A stretch of DNA of 41,093 nt from an uncultured Bacilli bacterium (GTDB taxonomy: Bacteria > Bacillota_I > Bacilli_A > RFN20 > CAG-826), in the NCBI GenBank assembly GCA_944336335.1, contig CALVLC010000005.1, positions 1 to 41,093 of the forward strand, given 5' to 3'. Below, piece by piece: positions 591 through 20,432 of the stretch (position 1 is the stretch's first letter; each line of letters begins with the position of its first letter). The notes beneath the pieces are model-generated. The model did not search any database, was not told the origin of the DNA, and was given only the letters and a program-made list of their open reading frames with translations. A program made the position numbers and the translations under genes.

Positions 591-601
591 AATAGCCGAA
601 G

Positions 602-764
602 ATTGATAGAGGCGCAGTTTAAAAGAGTAACTTGTGGAGAAGGCGTTCTAAGAAGCAAGTGAAAGGTATAACTGCCGAAACAACTTACTAGGCATAGAAG
701 TTGATTGGTCTATGGAAGAATATTCCAATAGACTCCTAGAGATTTTTCTAGAGGCGCTATCGGT
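602..764 (+). promoter_or_regulatory. Lysine riboswitch (L box) aptamer
   Basis: The leader carries the conserved blocks of the L box in the right order: GATAGAGGCGC at 605-615, AGAGTAA near 624, GTGAAAGGTATAACTGCCGA at 660-679 (with the diagnostic GCCGAA) and GAGGCGCTATC at 751-761. GATAG (605-609) pairs with CTATC (757-761) to close P1, extended by G-U pairs. This arrangement matches the B. subtilis lysC leader block by block. An intrinsic terminator follows at 781-809, so lysine binding probably favours termination. The downstream genes encode a polar amino acid importer, so the ligand and the transported substrate are very likely both lysine. Confidence 0.93.
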
Positions 765-780
765 GTGATTTCTTAAATTA

Positions 781-14272: not shown

Positions 14273-14806
14273 TTAAATAGATTTAAGTTTGCTTAAATAG
14301 ATTTCATTAATATTTTTAGCAAGTTCTTCAAGCGTTTTATCTTTGTTTTTAATTATAAAATCAGTTTTTATATCTTTATAAAATAATACGCGATCATTAT
14401 TTATACGGCGATTGATATCGGAGATTTCATCGCCTCTTTTCAACATTCTTTGATAACGCTCTTTTTCATCACTATCAATAAAGAAAGAAATCATATGAGG
14501 ATCATTTAGTTTTTGAAATGCTTTTAAACCATTTGGTTCGACAATTAAAATCTTATTATCTGCTTTTTCTTTTTTAAAGGAACCATAATAATTATTGTTA
14601 TAAATTGTGTATTCAATAAAAGCATCTTCTTTTATTTTATTTAAAAAGTCTTCTTTATTTATAAAGTAATAATCTTTTCCATCAATTTCGCCAACTCTTT
14701 TTTGGCGAGTCGTAGTTGTTACAAATTTTTGGTAATTAAAAAGAGAAATTAGCATTTTAGCTATATCTGTTTTTCCGCTTGCACTAGGTCCAGTTAAAAT
14801 AATCAT
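14273..14806 (-). CDS. Guanylate-kinase-like P-loop kinase
   Basis: 177 residues, starting with MIILTGPSASGKTDIAKML. Guanylate kinase features are recognisable: a P-loop at the N-terminus, VTTTTRQKRVGEIDGKDYYF (compare the TTRxPRxGExxGxDYxF GMP-binding signature), FIEYTIYNNNYYGS, and a distal RRINNDR arginine stretch. It is shorter than usual Gmk (about 190-205), and its P-loop reads SASGKT where Gmk has SGVGKGT. It may be a divergent Gmk or a paralogue with another nucleotide substrate. A longer frame upstream of 14806 runs through the divergent gene and lacks family similarity, so I chose the start at 14806. No Shine-Dalgarno sequence precedes it; the upstream 30 bases are A/T runs. It is convergent with the CNNM pair and divergent from the Tad-like operon. 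Confidence 0.75.
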   Translation of the reverse strand: MIILTGPSASGKTDIAKMLISLFNYQKFVTTTTRQKRVGEIDGKDYYFINKEDFLNKIKEDAFIEYTIYNNNYYGSFKKEKADNKILIVEPNGLKAFQKLNDPHMISFFIDSDEKERYQRMLKRGDEISDINRRINNDRVLFYKDIKTDFIIKNKDKTLEELAKNINEIYLSKLKSI

Positions 14807-14873
14807 AAATTTTTTAAAAATTTTTTTAATTTTTTTCGAATAAACTCCTTTATATAAGTGAGGAGGTAAAATT

Positions 14874-15989
14874 ATGAAAAAAATTGTGGTAAATTCACTC
14901 TTTCTTTTATCAAGTGTGCTTAATGTTTCACCAACACAACAAAATTTTAGCATTGCAGTCGATACAAAAAAAGCAAATTCAAATACTTTTGTTGAAAAAG
15001 AAAAGATTGAATTAAGCAATAAAATTCGATACTTAGAAATTCAAAGTTTTGATTTAAGGTTAAATGAATTTAAAGATAAAGATGCAATCACTTTTAATTT
15101 TGAAATAAAAAAACCTGTTGAGATGTTTCAAAGTTATTTTGTTTATTTGATAAATGGCGAAAAAGAACTTTTTGATACATTAACTATTGGATCCATGAAT
15201 GCTCCTGAAAGAGAAAAAGAAGTATCGGTAAATATTTTAAAAAGCGAGATTGAAGATATTGGTAATGATTTTTATATTCGAATCGGCGCAGCATTAAGTG
15301 AAAATACTGCGTTTGACTCTGTATTTTATTATCTCGATTTTCCTTTGTCGAATATTCGGAACTTAGTTTTTGATACAAATTCACTCGAATTTATTGTGGC
15401 ATTAAGTTACGACACTAGATATTTAACAATAATCAGAGAATACATGGAATTTTTAAATATCGAAAGAGATGTTTATGTCGATACTTATGAAAGTTTTTTC
15501 TTAAACGATATTGATTGCACTTATGTTTCTCAAGACATTCTTCCTGGTTATAACGCAAGAATGAGTTTTTATCTTTATGATCCGCTTCATTTATATTATT
15601 CAGCTTATAACAAAAAGCATCCAAAGTATGAAAACTATGCTGGCACATCCGTATTTTTCGGCTCAACTTATGACGATGTAATGCACACTTTAAGACTTAA
15701 TACTATCTTTTATATTGATTCAACGACCCTTATTTCTTTTAGATTAAAAGGTGATCTTATTTATTATTTCAGAAGTTCGGAATCAGTATATTTTCCAGTT
15801 AATTATTATGAAGTTTTTAAAGATGCAAAGTGCTTAATTAGGTTTGAAAATTACGGTAGTACAGGAGCTTGTATTGAATATCCTTTTACAATTCATTTTG
15901 CACCAAATTTTAGATTTGATGATTATTATGTTTCAGCTGTTGAAAGTGTAAAAGATTGGGACATCAGCCCAGAGGTGGTTGAGATATGA
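14874..15989 (+). CDS. Secreted protein of unknown function, first gene of the Tad-like operon
   Basis: 371 residues. The N-terminus (about 1-25) is a lysine-plus-hydrophobic signal peptide (MKKIVVNSLFLLSSVL), without an obvious lipobox. The rest has no second strong hydrophobic segment, is rich in Tyr, Phe and Asp, and alternates short polar and aromatic stretches, as in beta-rich surface proteins. I recognise no domain. AGGAGG lies 7 bases before the ATG, so expression can be strong. Its stop overlaps the next ATG (ATGA), tying it to the pilus-like operon; it could be a surface-exposed tip, minor subunit or assembly factor (inference from context). A possible -10, TATAAG at 14853-14858, is close to the ribosome site; no convincing -35 is seen. 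Confidence 0.8.
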   Translation: MKKIVVNSLFLLSSVLNVSPTQQNFSIAVDTKKANSNTFVEKEKIELSNKIRYLEIQSFDLRLNEFKDKDAITFNFEIKKPVEMFQSYFVYLINGEKELFDTLTIGSMNAPEREKEVSVNILKSEIEDIGNDFYIRIGAALSENTAFDSVFYYLDFPLSNIRNLVFDTNSLEFIVALSYDTRYLTIIREYMEFLNIERDVYVDTYESFFLNDIDCTYVSQDILPGYNARMSFYLYDPLHLYYSAYNKKHPKYENYAGTSVFFGSTYDDVMHTLRLNTIFYIDSTTLISFRLKGDLIYYFRSSESVYFPVNYYEVFKDAKCLIRFENYGSTGACIEYPFTIHFAPNFRFDDYYVSAVESVKDWDISPEVVEI

Positions 15990-16393
15990 GTAGCGTAATT
16001 ATCTTTTTCTCATTAATGCTTGTGACATCTTTAACAAGTATTTTAGGAATTTCAGTAAATGGAATGTCAATAAATAGAATTTTTTATAATATGCCAAGTG
16101 GAGTTGTAAATACTGCAGTTGCTTTGTATCAAAGAGATGGAGTTTATGATCCTTATTTTAATAGAGGACAATTAGAGAAAAACATCAAAACTTATCTAAC
16201 TAAGAGTCTAGAAGGATATATAAGTAGCTACGAAATCGATTTTACATATTATAAAAAGACTGAAAACAATGAATATGTCGTTGATGGTTCATTATATCGA
16301 AGAAAAGTGGAAGTTTATTTTGCTTGTACGTATTCAACTTTTGTTCGATTTGAAGGACGAAGAGGGTTTGAAATTGAAAGGACAGATTTATAA
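15986..16393 (+). CDS. Small single-pass membrane protein of the Tad-like operon
   Basis: 135 residues. Residues about 3-24 are a hydrophobic segment (VIIFFSLMLVTSLTSILGIS) followed by NGMSINRIFYNM, then a mostly polar domain with many Tyr residues. It overlaps the upstream stop by 4 bases and shares one base with the next gene (TAATG). The layout (N-terminal helix plus small exported domain, next to CpaF) resembles TadE/TadF-type pseudopilins, but I see no diagnostic motif, so the role rests on context. Confidence 0.75.
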   Translation: MSSVIIFFSLMLVTSLTSILGISVNGMSINRIFYNMPSGVVNTAVALYQRDGVYDPYFNRGQLEKNIKTYLTKSLEGYISSYEIDFTYYKKTENNEYVVDGSLYRRKVEVYFACTYSTFVRFEGRRGFEIERTDL

Positions 16394-17445
16394 TGAATTT
16401 AAAATTAATTGAATATATTGAAAATAGTTTTTTAAAGGAACTTTTAGAAAGAGATACGATAACTGATATCAGTTACAATGGGGAAAAGCTTTTTTATCAA
16501 GATAATTTGAGTGGACGTTTACAAAGTGATTTAGTTGTCACAAATAATGAAGTTTACGCTTTTTTAAGACAAATTGCTAATTTAACTGAGCAACAATTTT
16601 CAATTACTAATCCAATTTTAGATGTTAGTGTTGGAAGATATAGAATTAGTGCTCTTCATTCTTCTTTAGCAAGAAAAAATAGGGAAAAAGTATATAATTT
16701 TTCAATTCGTATTGGTTATGACAAATTAAGAATTGAGGATAATGGATCTTTTATTAATAAAAGAGCACTCATGCTTTTAGATGAAGCAATTAATAAGAAA
16801 TGTTCAATTGTAATTGCTGGAAAAACCGGAACAGGTAAAACTGAGTTTCAAAAGTTTTTGATCTCAAGAATGAACGAAAATACAAGAATTATTCTTATCG
16901 ATAACATTAATGAGTTTGAGACTAATTATTTTAAAGATAATTTAGATAGCCAAACTTGGCTAGTCAATAATCAGAAAAATAATTTTGATGATTTAATCAA
17001 AAATGCGTTAAGAAACAATCCTGATTGGTTAGTTGTTGGCGAAGCAAGAGGCGAAGAAATGAAAGCCTGTTTAAATTCAACAATGAGTGGTGCACCAACT
17101 ATTACAACAATGCATGCTAGAGATAGTGAAAGCATTTATCATCGTATCGCTAGAATGTGCATGATTAATTCTAAAAATTTAGTGTTTGAAGAAACGCTTG
17201 AAGACGTAAAAGAACATTTTAAATTCTTGGTTTACATCAAAAAAATATTTGATGAAAAGACAAGAAGCTATGTAAGATACGTAGATTCGATTTCAACAAA
17301 TGATCATGGCAAGTTCCTAGAAGTTTATAAATATCCATCAACTTTTAAGAGATTACCTGCTGAAATGAGAACTTTATTTGAAATGTCTTTAATTGAATTT
17401 AATAAATTTAATAAGAGATTTGCGGGGTTAAAGAATGAAGACTAG
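16393..17445 (+). CDS. CpaF/TadA-family secretion ATPase
   Basis: 350 residues; cytoplasmic ATPase that drives Tad/type IVb pilus assembly. The N-terminal domain (about 1-125) includes TDISYNGEKLFYQ and LRQIANLTEQQFSITNPILD, typical of CpaF. The core has Walker A IAGKTGTGKTEFQKF near 140-154, an Asp box (IILIDNINEFE), Walker B region NPDWLVVGEARGEE near 208-221, and the His box TTMHARDSESIYHRI near 236-250. All residues expected for an active VirB11/GspE-superfamily ATPase are present. It is somewhat shorter than proteobacterial CpaF (about 400-450), lacking a long N-terminal extension. It shares one base with the upstream gene and overlaps the TadB-like gene by 11 bases. Confidence 0.93.
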   Translation: MNLKLIEYIENSFLKELLERDTITDISYNGEKLFYQDNLSGRLQSDLVVTNNEVYAFLRQIANLTEQQFSITNPILDVSVGRYRISALHSSLARKNREKVYNFSIRIGYDKLRIEDNGSFINKRALMLLDEAINKKCSIVIAGKTGTGKTEFQKFLISRMNENTRIILIDNINEFETNYFKDNLDSQTWLVNNQKNNFDDLIKNALRNNPDWLVVGEARGEEMKACLNSTMSGAPTITTMHARDSESIYHRIARMCMINSKNLVFEETLEDVKEHFKFLVYIKKIFDEKTRSYVRYVDSISTNDHGKFLEVYKYPSTFKRLPAEMRTLFEMSLIEFNKFNKRFAGLKNED

Positions 17446-18223
17446 GTATTTAGTGTATGTTATAATTTCGCTTTTATTTGGTGGAAGTTTCTTTATTTTA
17501 ACAGGCGATATCATCTTTTCTGTCGCAACTTTATTAATCTTTCTCTTATTCTTCTTTCTTATTTATGACAAGAAAAGAAATTATTATAAAAGAAATTTAT
17601 CTAGATCATATGAAGCAATAAATTATATTAATAACTTTATTATTTCATTAAGTGTTAATCCGAGTTTAACTTATGCATTTGAAAATGCTAAAAATAGTGC
17701 TCAAAAAGGTTTAAGACAACAAATAGAATCGATAAATCATTTGCCGATCGAAGAGCAAATTGCATATTTATATCGCTATTTTGAATTACCACTTTATGGA
17801 GTTTTTATAAACATTATTAAACAATACATTTTCAACGGAGGAGACATCTTAGATATATCTCAAGTTCTGATTCGTGATTCTAGAGCACTTGAAGATCGTT
17901 TGATGGAATTCGAAAAAATGAGTCGAAGAAAATTTAGTGAATTTATTACAAGTTGGGCACTTTCTTTCCTTATCTTGTTTATACTTCAATTCTCAATTTC
18001 ATCAATTTATCAAGCGATAGATTCTGTTAAAAATTACGCCTTATTAATCTTCGTTTTCTATCTCATATTCTTAGTCAGTTTAATCTTTATGACTTATAGA
18101 ATATATGACATTTCTTTTATGACGAAAGGAGATTCGTGTCCAGATGTTAAAGAAACAAAAACAAAAAATGTTAAAGCTAAAACTAAATCCAAAAAAAGAA
18201 CTCTTAAAATTTTTAATAGGTAA
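17435..18223 (+). CDS. TadB-like membrane platform protein
   Basis: 262 residues. Two hydrophobic segments near the N-terminus (about 5-46), a cytoplasmic T2SSF-like helical domain (about 65-165; INNFIISLSVNPSLTYAFEN, FNGGDILDISQVLIRDSRAL), and two more segments at about 175-230 (WALSFLILFILQFSISSIY; LLIFVFYLIFLVSLIFM). This is the TadB plan, the inner platform on which CpaF acts. The tail is very rich in lysine (about 240-262) and its coding DNA also encodes the start of the TadC-like gene. It starts inside the cpaF gene (11-base overlap). Confidence 0.87.
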   Translation: MKTRYLVYVIISLLFGGSFFILTGDIIFSVATLLIFLLFFFLIYDKKRNYYKRNLSRSYEAINYINNFIISLSVNPSLTYAFENAKNSAQKGLRQQIESINHLPIEEQIAYLYRYFELPLYGVFINIIKQYIFNGGDILDISQVLIRDSRALEDRLMEFEKMSRRKFSEFITSWALSFLILFILQFSISSIYQAIDSVKNYALLIFVFYLIFLVSLIFMTYRIYDISFMTKGDSCPDVKETKTKNVKAKTKSKKRTLKIFNR

Positions 18224-18815
18224 TTTAGTTGTTATAGCTATTTCAATAGCCTTAATCTTTATATTTAAATCTCTATTTTATATATCAGTTTTAGTAGTAG
18301 GCGTTCTTCTTTTCTCTTATGCATTCTTTTATCGATATGATCAATTTGAAATTGATAAAAGAAAGAGATTAGAAATTGAGTTCGTTGAAGTATTTTCTTA
18401 TCTAAGGATTTATTTAACAAATAAAGAAACAGTTTATACAGCTTTGACCAAAGCTAGTGAATATACATCAAAAGAAATGAACAGTAAGATAAATGAATTT
18501 TTATTAAAGATTGATGAAGATAAATCAATTGTTCCATTTTTGGAATTTGGTAGATATTTTCATAACAAAACGATAGAAGAAGTTATGATCTCTTTATACC
18601 AAATGGTTGATGGTGGTTATGCTGAAAATTATATAAATCAATTCGTTTTAGTATTTGAAAATTTAAGAAAAAGAAGCAATGAAGAAAGTTTGCATAATCG
18701 TTATAAAAAGATGAATAATCTGAATCTTATTACTCTTGTTGGTAGCGGATATTTAATGATGGTTATGTTAATTGTAATTGTTTCAGTGATAGGAGAAATG
18801 ACAAATGGCTTCTAA
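18144..18815 (+). CDS. TadC-like membrane platform protein
   Basis: 223 residues. A lysine-rich N-terminus leads into two hydrophobic segments (about 24-62), a helical cytoplasmic domain (about 72-185; FVEVFSYLRIYLTNKETVYT, ISLYQMVDGGYAENYINQF), and a C-terminal segment (LNLITLVGSGYLMMVMLIVI). This is the TadC plan, which pairs with TadB. The first ATG (18144) has AAAGGAG (18125-18131) 12 bases upstream and lies 80 bases inside the TadB-like gene in another frame. A later internal start would shorten the overlap, but no better ribosome site is seen in frame. The next gene overlaps by 11 bases. Confidence 0.85.
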   Translation: MLKKQKQKMLKLKLNPKKELLKFLIGNLVVIAISIALIFIFKSLFYISVLVVGVLLFSYAFFYRYDQFEIDKRKRLEIEFVEVFSYLRIYLTNKETVYTALTKASEYTSKEMNSKINEFLLKIDEDKSIVPFLEFGRYFHNKTIEEVMISLYQMVDGGYAENYINQFVLVFENLRKRSNEESLHNRYKKMNNLNLITLVGSGYLMMVMLIVIVSVIGEMTNGF

Positions 18816-19149
18816 AATCGGTGTAATTTTATGTTTATTATTCTTTTTCTACGCATTCTTATTCGCTAGTGACTTTATTATGATCCAACTTACATATACA
18901 AGTTTGGATGCTCTTTCGACAACAGTTAGTTATCGAATTTCTAAAACAGGAGAAATCAATGAAGAGTTAACTAAATTTGTGAAAGAGGAAATTAATGGTG
19001 ATATTAAACCAGTTGGAGCGTCTTCATCTTATGAGGAAGGTTCAATGTTAGGATACTATCTTATTAAAGAGTATGAGCCAATCGCTTATGATAGTGAACC
19101 TTTAACCATTAAGATTAAACGCTACGCTGTGATTAATATGTATAGATGA
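18805..19149 (+). CDS. Small TadE-like pseudopilin-type membrane protein
   Basis: 114 residues. An N-terminal hydrophobic helix (about 5-24, GVILCLLFFFYAFLFASDF) is followed by a polar domain of about 90 residues ending in LTIKIKRYAVINMYR. A short protein with one N-terminal helix directly after TadC is the usual position of TadE/TadF pseudopilins. AGGAGAA sits about 8 bases before the ATG, which lies 11 bases inside the upstream gene. The family call rests on position and topology. Confidence 0.72.
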   Translation: MASKIGVILCLLFFFYAFLFASDFIMIQLTYTSLDALSTTVSYRISKTGEINEELTKFVKEEINGDIKPVGASSSYEEGSMLGYYLIKEYEPIAYDSEPLTIKIKRYAVINMYR

Positions 19150-19177
19150 TTTTTAATTAAAAGGAGGTATTTATTTT

Positions 19178-19369
19178 ATGTCAGAAATTAAAGGTCAATT
19201 ATTAGGGATTGTTTTAGTTGTTACAATCTTTGCAGCAGTAGGAGGTGTTTTACTTGGAGCATTTAAAACAGCTGCTTCAAATACAGCTGAAAAAATCAAA
19301 GAGCAACCAACAATTCAAGAACCAGCAGAAGCTCACGCAGCTCTTGATTCAAACTTATTATCATTCTAA
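19178..19369 (+). CDS. Putative Flp-like major pilin
   Basis: 63 residues with the best ribosome site in the operon (AAAGGAGG, 19160-19167). The start is short and polar (MSEIKG), followed by QLLGIVLVVTIFAAVGGVLL and a small Ala/Pro/Glu-rich hydrophilic tail. A Gly followed by a hydrophobic helix of about 20 residues is the prepilin processing pattern; cleavage after Gly6 would leave a 57-residue subunit. The Glu at position +5 of many type IV pilins is absent (Ile instead). Tiny size, last place in the operon, strong translation signal and the terminator behind it all fit a major Flp-type subunit made in excess. Confidence 0.72.
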   Translation: MSEIKGQLLGIVLVVTIFAAVGGVLLGAFKTAASNTAEKIKEQPTIQEPAEAHAALDSNLLSF

Positions 19370-19410: not shown

Positions 19411-19456
19411 AAAATATCGAGGTTTTGCAGGCTATTTAGCAAAATTTCGATATTTT
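19411..19456 (+). terminator. Long intrinsic terminator of the Tad-like operon
   Basis: AAAATATCGAGGTTTTGC (19411-19428) pairs with GCAAAATTTCGATATTTT (19439-19456) over 18 bases with only two G-U pairs and a 10-base loop; T residues follow. Confidence 0.85.
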
Positions 19457-20207: not shown

Positions 20208-20432
20208 TTATTTAATTTTTGAAAGAATTAAATCGAAAAGTTCGCCAACTGTTTTGAGATCTTTTGTCTCATCAGCAGCAAAAGCAACTGAATATTTGTC
20301 TTCTAAATCAAGTAAAAATTCAACTACATCTAATGAATCCAATCCATAAGTTGCAAGAGTAGCATCTCTATCGATATTCTCGACGTGTAATTTAGTTTTG
20401 ATTAAATTTTCAAGTTCAGCTTTTTTATCCAT
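20208..20432 (-). CDS. Acyl carrier protein
   Basis: 74 residues, the usual ACP length. The phosphopantetheine site is the Ser in TYGLDSLDVVEFLLDLEDKY (about residue 33), followed by the acidic helix II that docks to fatty acid synthase enzymes. The overall charge is negative, with a regular four-helix pattern. It carries acyl chains in fatty acid or phospholipid synthesis, or on another carrier pathway; no biosynthetic gene is adjacent, so the partner is unknown. AGGAAGGGAA lies about 7 bases before the ATG on the minus strand. Upstream, TTTAGGAAAAACCTAAA forms a small hairpin in the leader. I give no symbol because genomes often carry more than one ACP. Confidence 0.92.
   Translation of the reverse strand: MDKKAELENLIKTKLHVENIDRDATLATYGLDSLDVVEFLLDLEDKYSVAFAADETKDLKTVGELFDLILSKIK

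Follow-up and report, generated by a model that had tools for sequence, protein, structure and literature searches.

We describe a seven-gene operon. On balance, we take it to encode a minimal machine of the Tad type (type IV filament assembly), one that operates with no prepilin peptidase and displays or exports the product of the first gene, A. The operon lies in a 41,093-nucleotide stretch of an uncultured Bacilli genome (the window), is confirmed as real and is strongly conserved across relatives. The machine is Tad-like in that motor, platform and pseudopilin are homologous to Tad components, and it departs from two features that define the superfamily, the A24 prepilin peptidase and a class III pilin. 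Because nearly all genomes bearing the operon are devoid of the trimming enzyme, the tiny pilin is probably put to use without trimming. If true, this implies a filament built without a peptidase across roughly 200 species, with leader removal not being essential, and places the operon among the smallest type IV filament machines.

Organization, conservation and host of the operon

All seven genes are encoded on the forward strand and overlap or nearly touch (Table 1). Their positions and lengths agree with the initial annotation, as does its view that the first two genes belong to no recognised family: neither A nor B has a match to a known family. Within the operon, neither CpaE/TadZ nor a secretin (RcpA) is present. 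The terminator-like hairpin at its end was missed by a simple terminator scan. The guanylate-kinase-like and acyl carrier protein genes on either side in the window flank the operon in most relatives as well.

Table 1. Features of the operon (14874-19369) and its surroundings in the window
Feature	Position	Strand	Remarks
Lysine riboswitch	599..767		80.9 bits
Guanylate-kinase-like gene	14273..14824		100 bits, below the 160-bit NCBIfam guanylate kinase cut-off
Gene A	14874..15989	+	Secreted, 371 aa; two Ig/FnIII-like beta-sandwich domains; putative adhesin or tip protein
Gene B	15986..16393	+	Bitopic, 135 aa; N-terminal helix starts at residue 2 and precedes an alpha/beta domain; leaderless, minor-pilin-like arrangement
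CpaF/TadA assembly ATPase	16393..17445	+	350 aa; family and structure matches; Walker A conserved in alignment
TadB-like platform protein	17435..18223	+	262 aa; T2SSF matches in relatives, TadC homology
TadC-like platform protein	18144..18815	+	223 aa; overlaps TadB by ~80 bp
Gene F, TadF-like pseudopilin	18805..19149	+	114 aa; membrane helix from initiator Met
Gene P, pilin-like peptide	19178..19369	+	63 aa; N-terminal MSEIKGQ, then one membrane helix
Terminator-like hairpin, operon end	19411..19456	+	18 bp; MFE -19.6 kcal/mol, z -5.2
Acyl carrier protein gene	20208..20432		

How widespread is this arrangement? A CpaF profile matches 207 of the 279 genomes of the order, 201 of them with E<1e-50 (hereafter strong CpaF), and homologous modules are found on Gram-positive conjugative plasmids (see below); the suggestion that the machine is specific to this lineage is thus unsupported. 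From these matches, a Tad-type machine appears to be kept in about 200 related species. The order A-B-CpaF-TadB-TadC-F-P recurs among 80 named loci, with every gene but A present in 76–80 of them and A detected in 57. In 63 of 69 loci, A has the guanylate-kinase-like gene as its divergent neighbour, and P is followed by the acyl carrier protein gene in 48 of 61. In f8 genomes (L060, L061) the address differs from that in family f1, the operon lying beside apparent spoIVFA/spoIVFB, rplU, rpmA and obg. In a CpaF tree, the genus holds together (support 1.00), as does family f1 (0.87), and the f1/f2 genomes stand apart (1.00), as expected under vertical descent. A is the fastest-evolving member, with 33–36% identity where CpaF keeps 80–83%; F and P evolve slowly.

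The host, we infer, is a relative of Candidatus Onthovivens in the GTDB order RFN20, with Onthovivens as the window genus, and its family is probably CAG-826. Its assembly (2.0 Mb in 169 contigs, 80% complete) belongs to the same genus as genome G020. Alloenteromonas, which we equate with Enteromonas pullistercoris, a species described as a member of RFN20 family CAG-826 (PMC8035907), has the operon as well (L148). For CAG-826, an absence of peptidoglycan has been predicted (PMC10868615). A gene for FtsW/RodA/SpoVE was found in none of the 26 genus members searched and in one of nine other family members, and also in four f8 genomes and one f6 genome, all operon-bearing; the machine thus occurs both in wall-less and in probably walled relatives. 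If our reading is correct, a wall-less gut lineage would gain its main candidate for a surface organelle.

Motor, platform and pseudopilin

CpaF had been recognised in the initial annotation, and its identity is certain, with matches to Pfam T2SSE (3e-19), NCBIfam VirB11 (9e-33) and TadA (8e-25) and to solved CpaF structures (4e-29). TadB and TadC of the window match no family on their own. The two are homologous to each other (hhalign, 7e-7), and T2SSF is matched by seven of 33 TadC relatives (best 1e-4) and two of 32 TadB relatives (best 2e-3), so that both initial assignments stand as distant but supported. Gene F had been called TadE-like, which is nearly right; its relatives come nearer to TadF, with Pfam TadF matched in eight of 46 (best 2e-4) and TadE in one. 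By sequence, TadB, TadC and F are all very diverged. PDB sequence searches with the P, F, TadB and TadC profiles returned nothing credible, and comparing the F profile with those of B and P gave no match.

Of the features of the type IV filament superfamily, a secretion-type assembly ATPase is thus present in CpaF, and a T2SSF-type polytopic platform protein is present through weak but consistent matches. The resemblance extends to Tad/Flp systems proper (type IVb/IVc: Caulobacter Cpa, Aggregatibacter Tad, Bulleidia extructa), with which the operon shares an ATPase of the CpaF/TadA clade, a platform of separate TadB and TadC, a pilin-like peptide of about 60 aa and, weakly, a TadE/TadF pseudopilin in the form of TadF-like F; B is assignable to neither TadE nor TadF. 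Unlike in Tad/Flp, the genomes bearing the operon nearly all lack a TadV/CpaA peptidase, their pilin-like proteins show no recognisable cleavable leader and no Glu at +5, and the operon here contains no TadZ. The Bulleidia tad locus begins with tadV (PMC12786226).

Absence of the prepilin peptidase

In reviews, the prepilin peptidase figures as a conserved component of type IV filament machines (PMC4471445, PMC6668835). The initial annotation had noted its absence from the window, and this holds genome-wide: the window genome contains no match to the A24 profile. As the searchable assembly is just 80% complete, the case for absence rests on relatives. The profile matched 12 of 14 control genomes and 13 of the 279 genomes of the order (12 above the cut-off), true matches within the order ranging from E 1e-7 to 1e-18. 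Among the 201 strong-CpaF genomes, ten have an A24 match and 191 have none, so that the peptidase, a hallmark of the superfamily, is missing from these as it is from the window genome. The A24-free genomes that carry the CpaF operon include one in a single contig (G269, 99% complete) and others in two to four contigs (G128, G263, G266, G273). A sub-threshold A24-like match on contig C12 of G000 (E 0.05, the best in that genome) is an ABC sugar permease; other sub-threshold matches were spurious.

What does the peptidase do where it is present? In the four A24-positive genomes inspected (G022, G095, G142, G042), the gene is pilD and sits in a separate PilB-PilC-PilD cluster that carries classic prepilins of the KGFTLIE type. 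P of G022 retains MSEIKGQ and is indistinguishable from any other P. Processing of P by PilD is therefore unlikely in these genomes, PilD sitting with its own pilins, and the operon appears neither to require the peptidase nor to be linked to it.

At the outset, two outcomes had been named that would together speak against a pilus: no peptidase in the genome, and no conserved pilin-like gene at this position in relatives. The peptidase is indeed absent, but the pilin-like gene is extremely conserved. This combination argues for a real, conserved machine, probably functional without the usual maturation enzyme, and against a relic. An unrelated peptidase could substitute for A24.

Related cases exist. 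Gram-positive tad-like loci without a prepilin motif are likewise Tad-like with non-canonical or missing pilins but retain tadV, the very part that is missing here (Imam et al. 2011, PMC3244431). As in our operon, the type IV filament genes of MSH pilus loci and of Nanoarchaeota have no peptidase at the locus, and in Nanoarchaeota it goes undetected even genome-wide (PMC6668835, PMC4471445). MSH genomes, however, have the peptidase of another system, whereas most operon genomes have none. Among the papers searched, none describes leaderless or peptidase-independent pilins.

Peptide P and the N-termini of the pilin-like proteins

The 63-residue product of the last gene, initially described as pilin-like, matches no known family, Flp profiles included, yet it is conserved at the same position throughout the order. 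In all 84 distinct sequences it reads M-[SGA]-E-x-K-[GA] from the start codon; E3, K5, L9 and F18 are invariant, and position 2 admits only Ser, Gly or Ala. Of the operon's N-termini, that of P is the most rigidly conserved. The start itself is well supported: each of the 84 has ATG or GTG with a Shine-Dalgarno motif (a strong one of its own, aaaggaggt, in the window), and an in-frame stop lies upstream, usually within 30 codons. Third positions of the codons for residues 2, 4, 6 and 8–10 vary freely among the 84 proteins, and the constraint must therefore act on the protein.

In its first residues P carries no net positive charge, the E5-Y6 motif of the Flp family is absent, and there is no Glu at +5, though K[GA] is kept before the helix. 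P thus shows no class III signal peptide (basic leader, G/A, helix with E5), and B and F begin with the helix, which in most members lies at or adjoins the initiator Met (onset at residue 1 in B). With no cleavable leader recognisable on any of the three, we infer that they are leaderless. An invariant acidic residue is not expected in a leader that is discarded, and E3 hence argues for a retained N-terminus. In the same direction points what appears to be a case of natural decay: G019 (L065), the sole genus member examined that lacks P, has a damaged CpaF Walker A (GENESGKK). Outside the order, the P profile gave weak class-level matches only, one element in G283 excepted (see below), and a scan of viral contigs revealed no relatives.

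Could P nevertheless be an ordinary Tad prepilin? KG|Q still resembles a possible class III cleavage site, and a leader of six residues is of normal length in type IVa pilins. The enzyme would then be too diverged for the Pfam profile or come from another family. The preservation of KG or KA before the helix speaks for such cleavage, as does the homologous operon of the outgroup genome G279, with an A24 peptidase of 122 aa directly after TadC. We nonetheless regard it as unlikely, since the profile does find A24 in the order wherever it is present, the remaining matches (the permease of G000 at their head) are spurious, E3 would be unusual in a discarded leader, and in F and B there is no leader that could be cut.

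Genes A and B and a possible function

For A, an AF2 model (pLDDT 86.7) predicts a two-domain beta-sandwich. The best fold matches were RbmA, beta-sandwiches of factor XIII (transglutaminase) and FimC-like chaperones, all with Z<8, so that the predicted fold resembles a common adhesin-like type, short of identification. B (pLDDT 92.9) is modelled as a long helix plus sheet; its fold search gave only Z<8 (T4 gp25-like proteins, pantothenate synthetase and, with Z 5.4, the pilin 5g25), none of them significant.

How might such a machine operate? We favour uncleaved assembly on the following lines. CpaF would hydrolyse ATP and turn the TadB/TadC platform. The platform would raise copies of P from the membrane and build them into a filament that is short or thin and has F and B for its minor pilins. 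The mature N-termini of P, F and B would be set by the translation start and methionine removal, the latter being proposed for P because its second residue is without exception Ser, Gly or Ala. The invariant E3 and K5 beside the membrane helix may substitute for the pairing of E5 with the free amine in processed pilins. The filament would display or push out the fast-evolving, Ig-like A, and A could let the cells, which are small, host-associated and for the most part predicted to be wall-less, stick to the host, a food particle or a neighbour.

The initial annotation had offered adhesion or DNA uptake as the role of the machine. Adhesion is plausible, and we favour it by way of a short filament or display device. 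The main functional alternative is secretion, in which P would form a short, pseudopilus-type piston that exports A, with no long surface pilus. A is the first gene and appears secreted, the ectodomain of P does not exceed about 30 residues, and there is neither an outer membrane nor a wall to cross. Secretion nevertheless seems distinctly improbable to us: A has an apparent Sec-type N-terminus of its own, and Tad systems with pilins as small as P build real pili.

DNA uptake, in contrast, found no support. A pilus feeding ComEC would fit the many genomes here that encode ComEC but no further type IV filament, and Tad pili have been linked with DNA uptake in Liberibacter (PMC8513845). ComEC is, however, similarly frequent with the operon (25 of 36) and without it (14 of 23), and it was not found in G000, which makes this role very unlikely.

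Relatives on conjugative plasmids

Searching plasmids with CpaF led to pHT-beta (NC_007594, L213), a Bacillus plasmid of the pLS20 type (NZ_OX419552, L212) and a plasmid of Paraclostridium (P. bifermentans; NZ_CP079739, L214). The second was classed by plasmid size and a thioester adhesin before CpaF/VirB11, comparable to the tie-virB11 order (PMC11730352). In all three the order matches that of our operon: a large adhesin in the position of A, a B-position protein (126–140 aa), CpaF, TadB, TadC, F (120 aa), then single or tandem peptides of 47–48 aa. The operon profiles confirm homology for CpaF (1e-75), TadB (9e-13), TadC (1e-11) and F (2e-7), whereas the B profile matched one plasmid only (2e-4) and the P profile none of the three. 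The plasmid micropeptides differ from P in sequence, starting MLDQN.DR... in two plasmids and MQENN... in pHT-beta, with no detectable homology, and the adhesin is of thioester or SpaA type, not A. Nor is A24 present on any of the three. The 47–48-aa membrane peptides, annotated as hypothetical, are leaderless; the 47-aa one is matched in 85 plasmid records, among them records of Bacillus, Enterococcus and Listeria.

Is the chromosomal operon, then, a relic or a still-working part of a conjugation system? The shared module on pHT-beta, the pLS20-type plasmid and the G283 element would suggest so. The plasmid modules, however, adjoin transfer genes of the VirD4 type, and in those loci of relatives that were inspected, the operon has no VirB4, VirD4 or relaxase gene next to it; gene order is kept throughout the order, and the chromosomal address between the kinase-like and acyl carrier protein genes is fixed. 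Such a relic or remaining part is the least probable of the readings that we weighed.

Conversely, the plasmid link bears on conjugation itself. Pili are said to be absent from Gram-positive mating (PMC8092201, PMC11730352), and efficient conjugation of pLS20 depends on its adhesin TIE (PMC8092201). A pilus-like mating device in Gram-positive conjugation operons is possible, and the link puts forward a pilus-like candidate, open to testing, for the initial contact in mating. More tentatively, we can conceive of an entire type IV filament clade without prepilin processing, whose leaderless pilins would arise from translation and methionine aminopeptidase; mating-pair adhesion by plasmids may share this principle.

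Two further genomes complement this picture. The CpaF of G279 (L199) groups with the plasmids (support 0.93). As its operon includes A24, the RFN20 line may have lost the peptidase, though this grouping leaves room for another order of events. The enzyme is TadV-like, and a WXG100-like gene lies close by. In G283 (L201, L203), CpaF-TadB-TadC adjoins conjugation-like genes, and a P-like peptide, MGEQKGSLWLVVIGL, is encoded on another contig.
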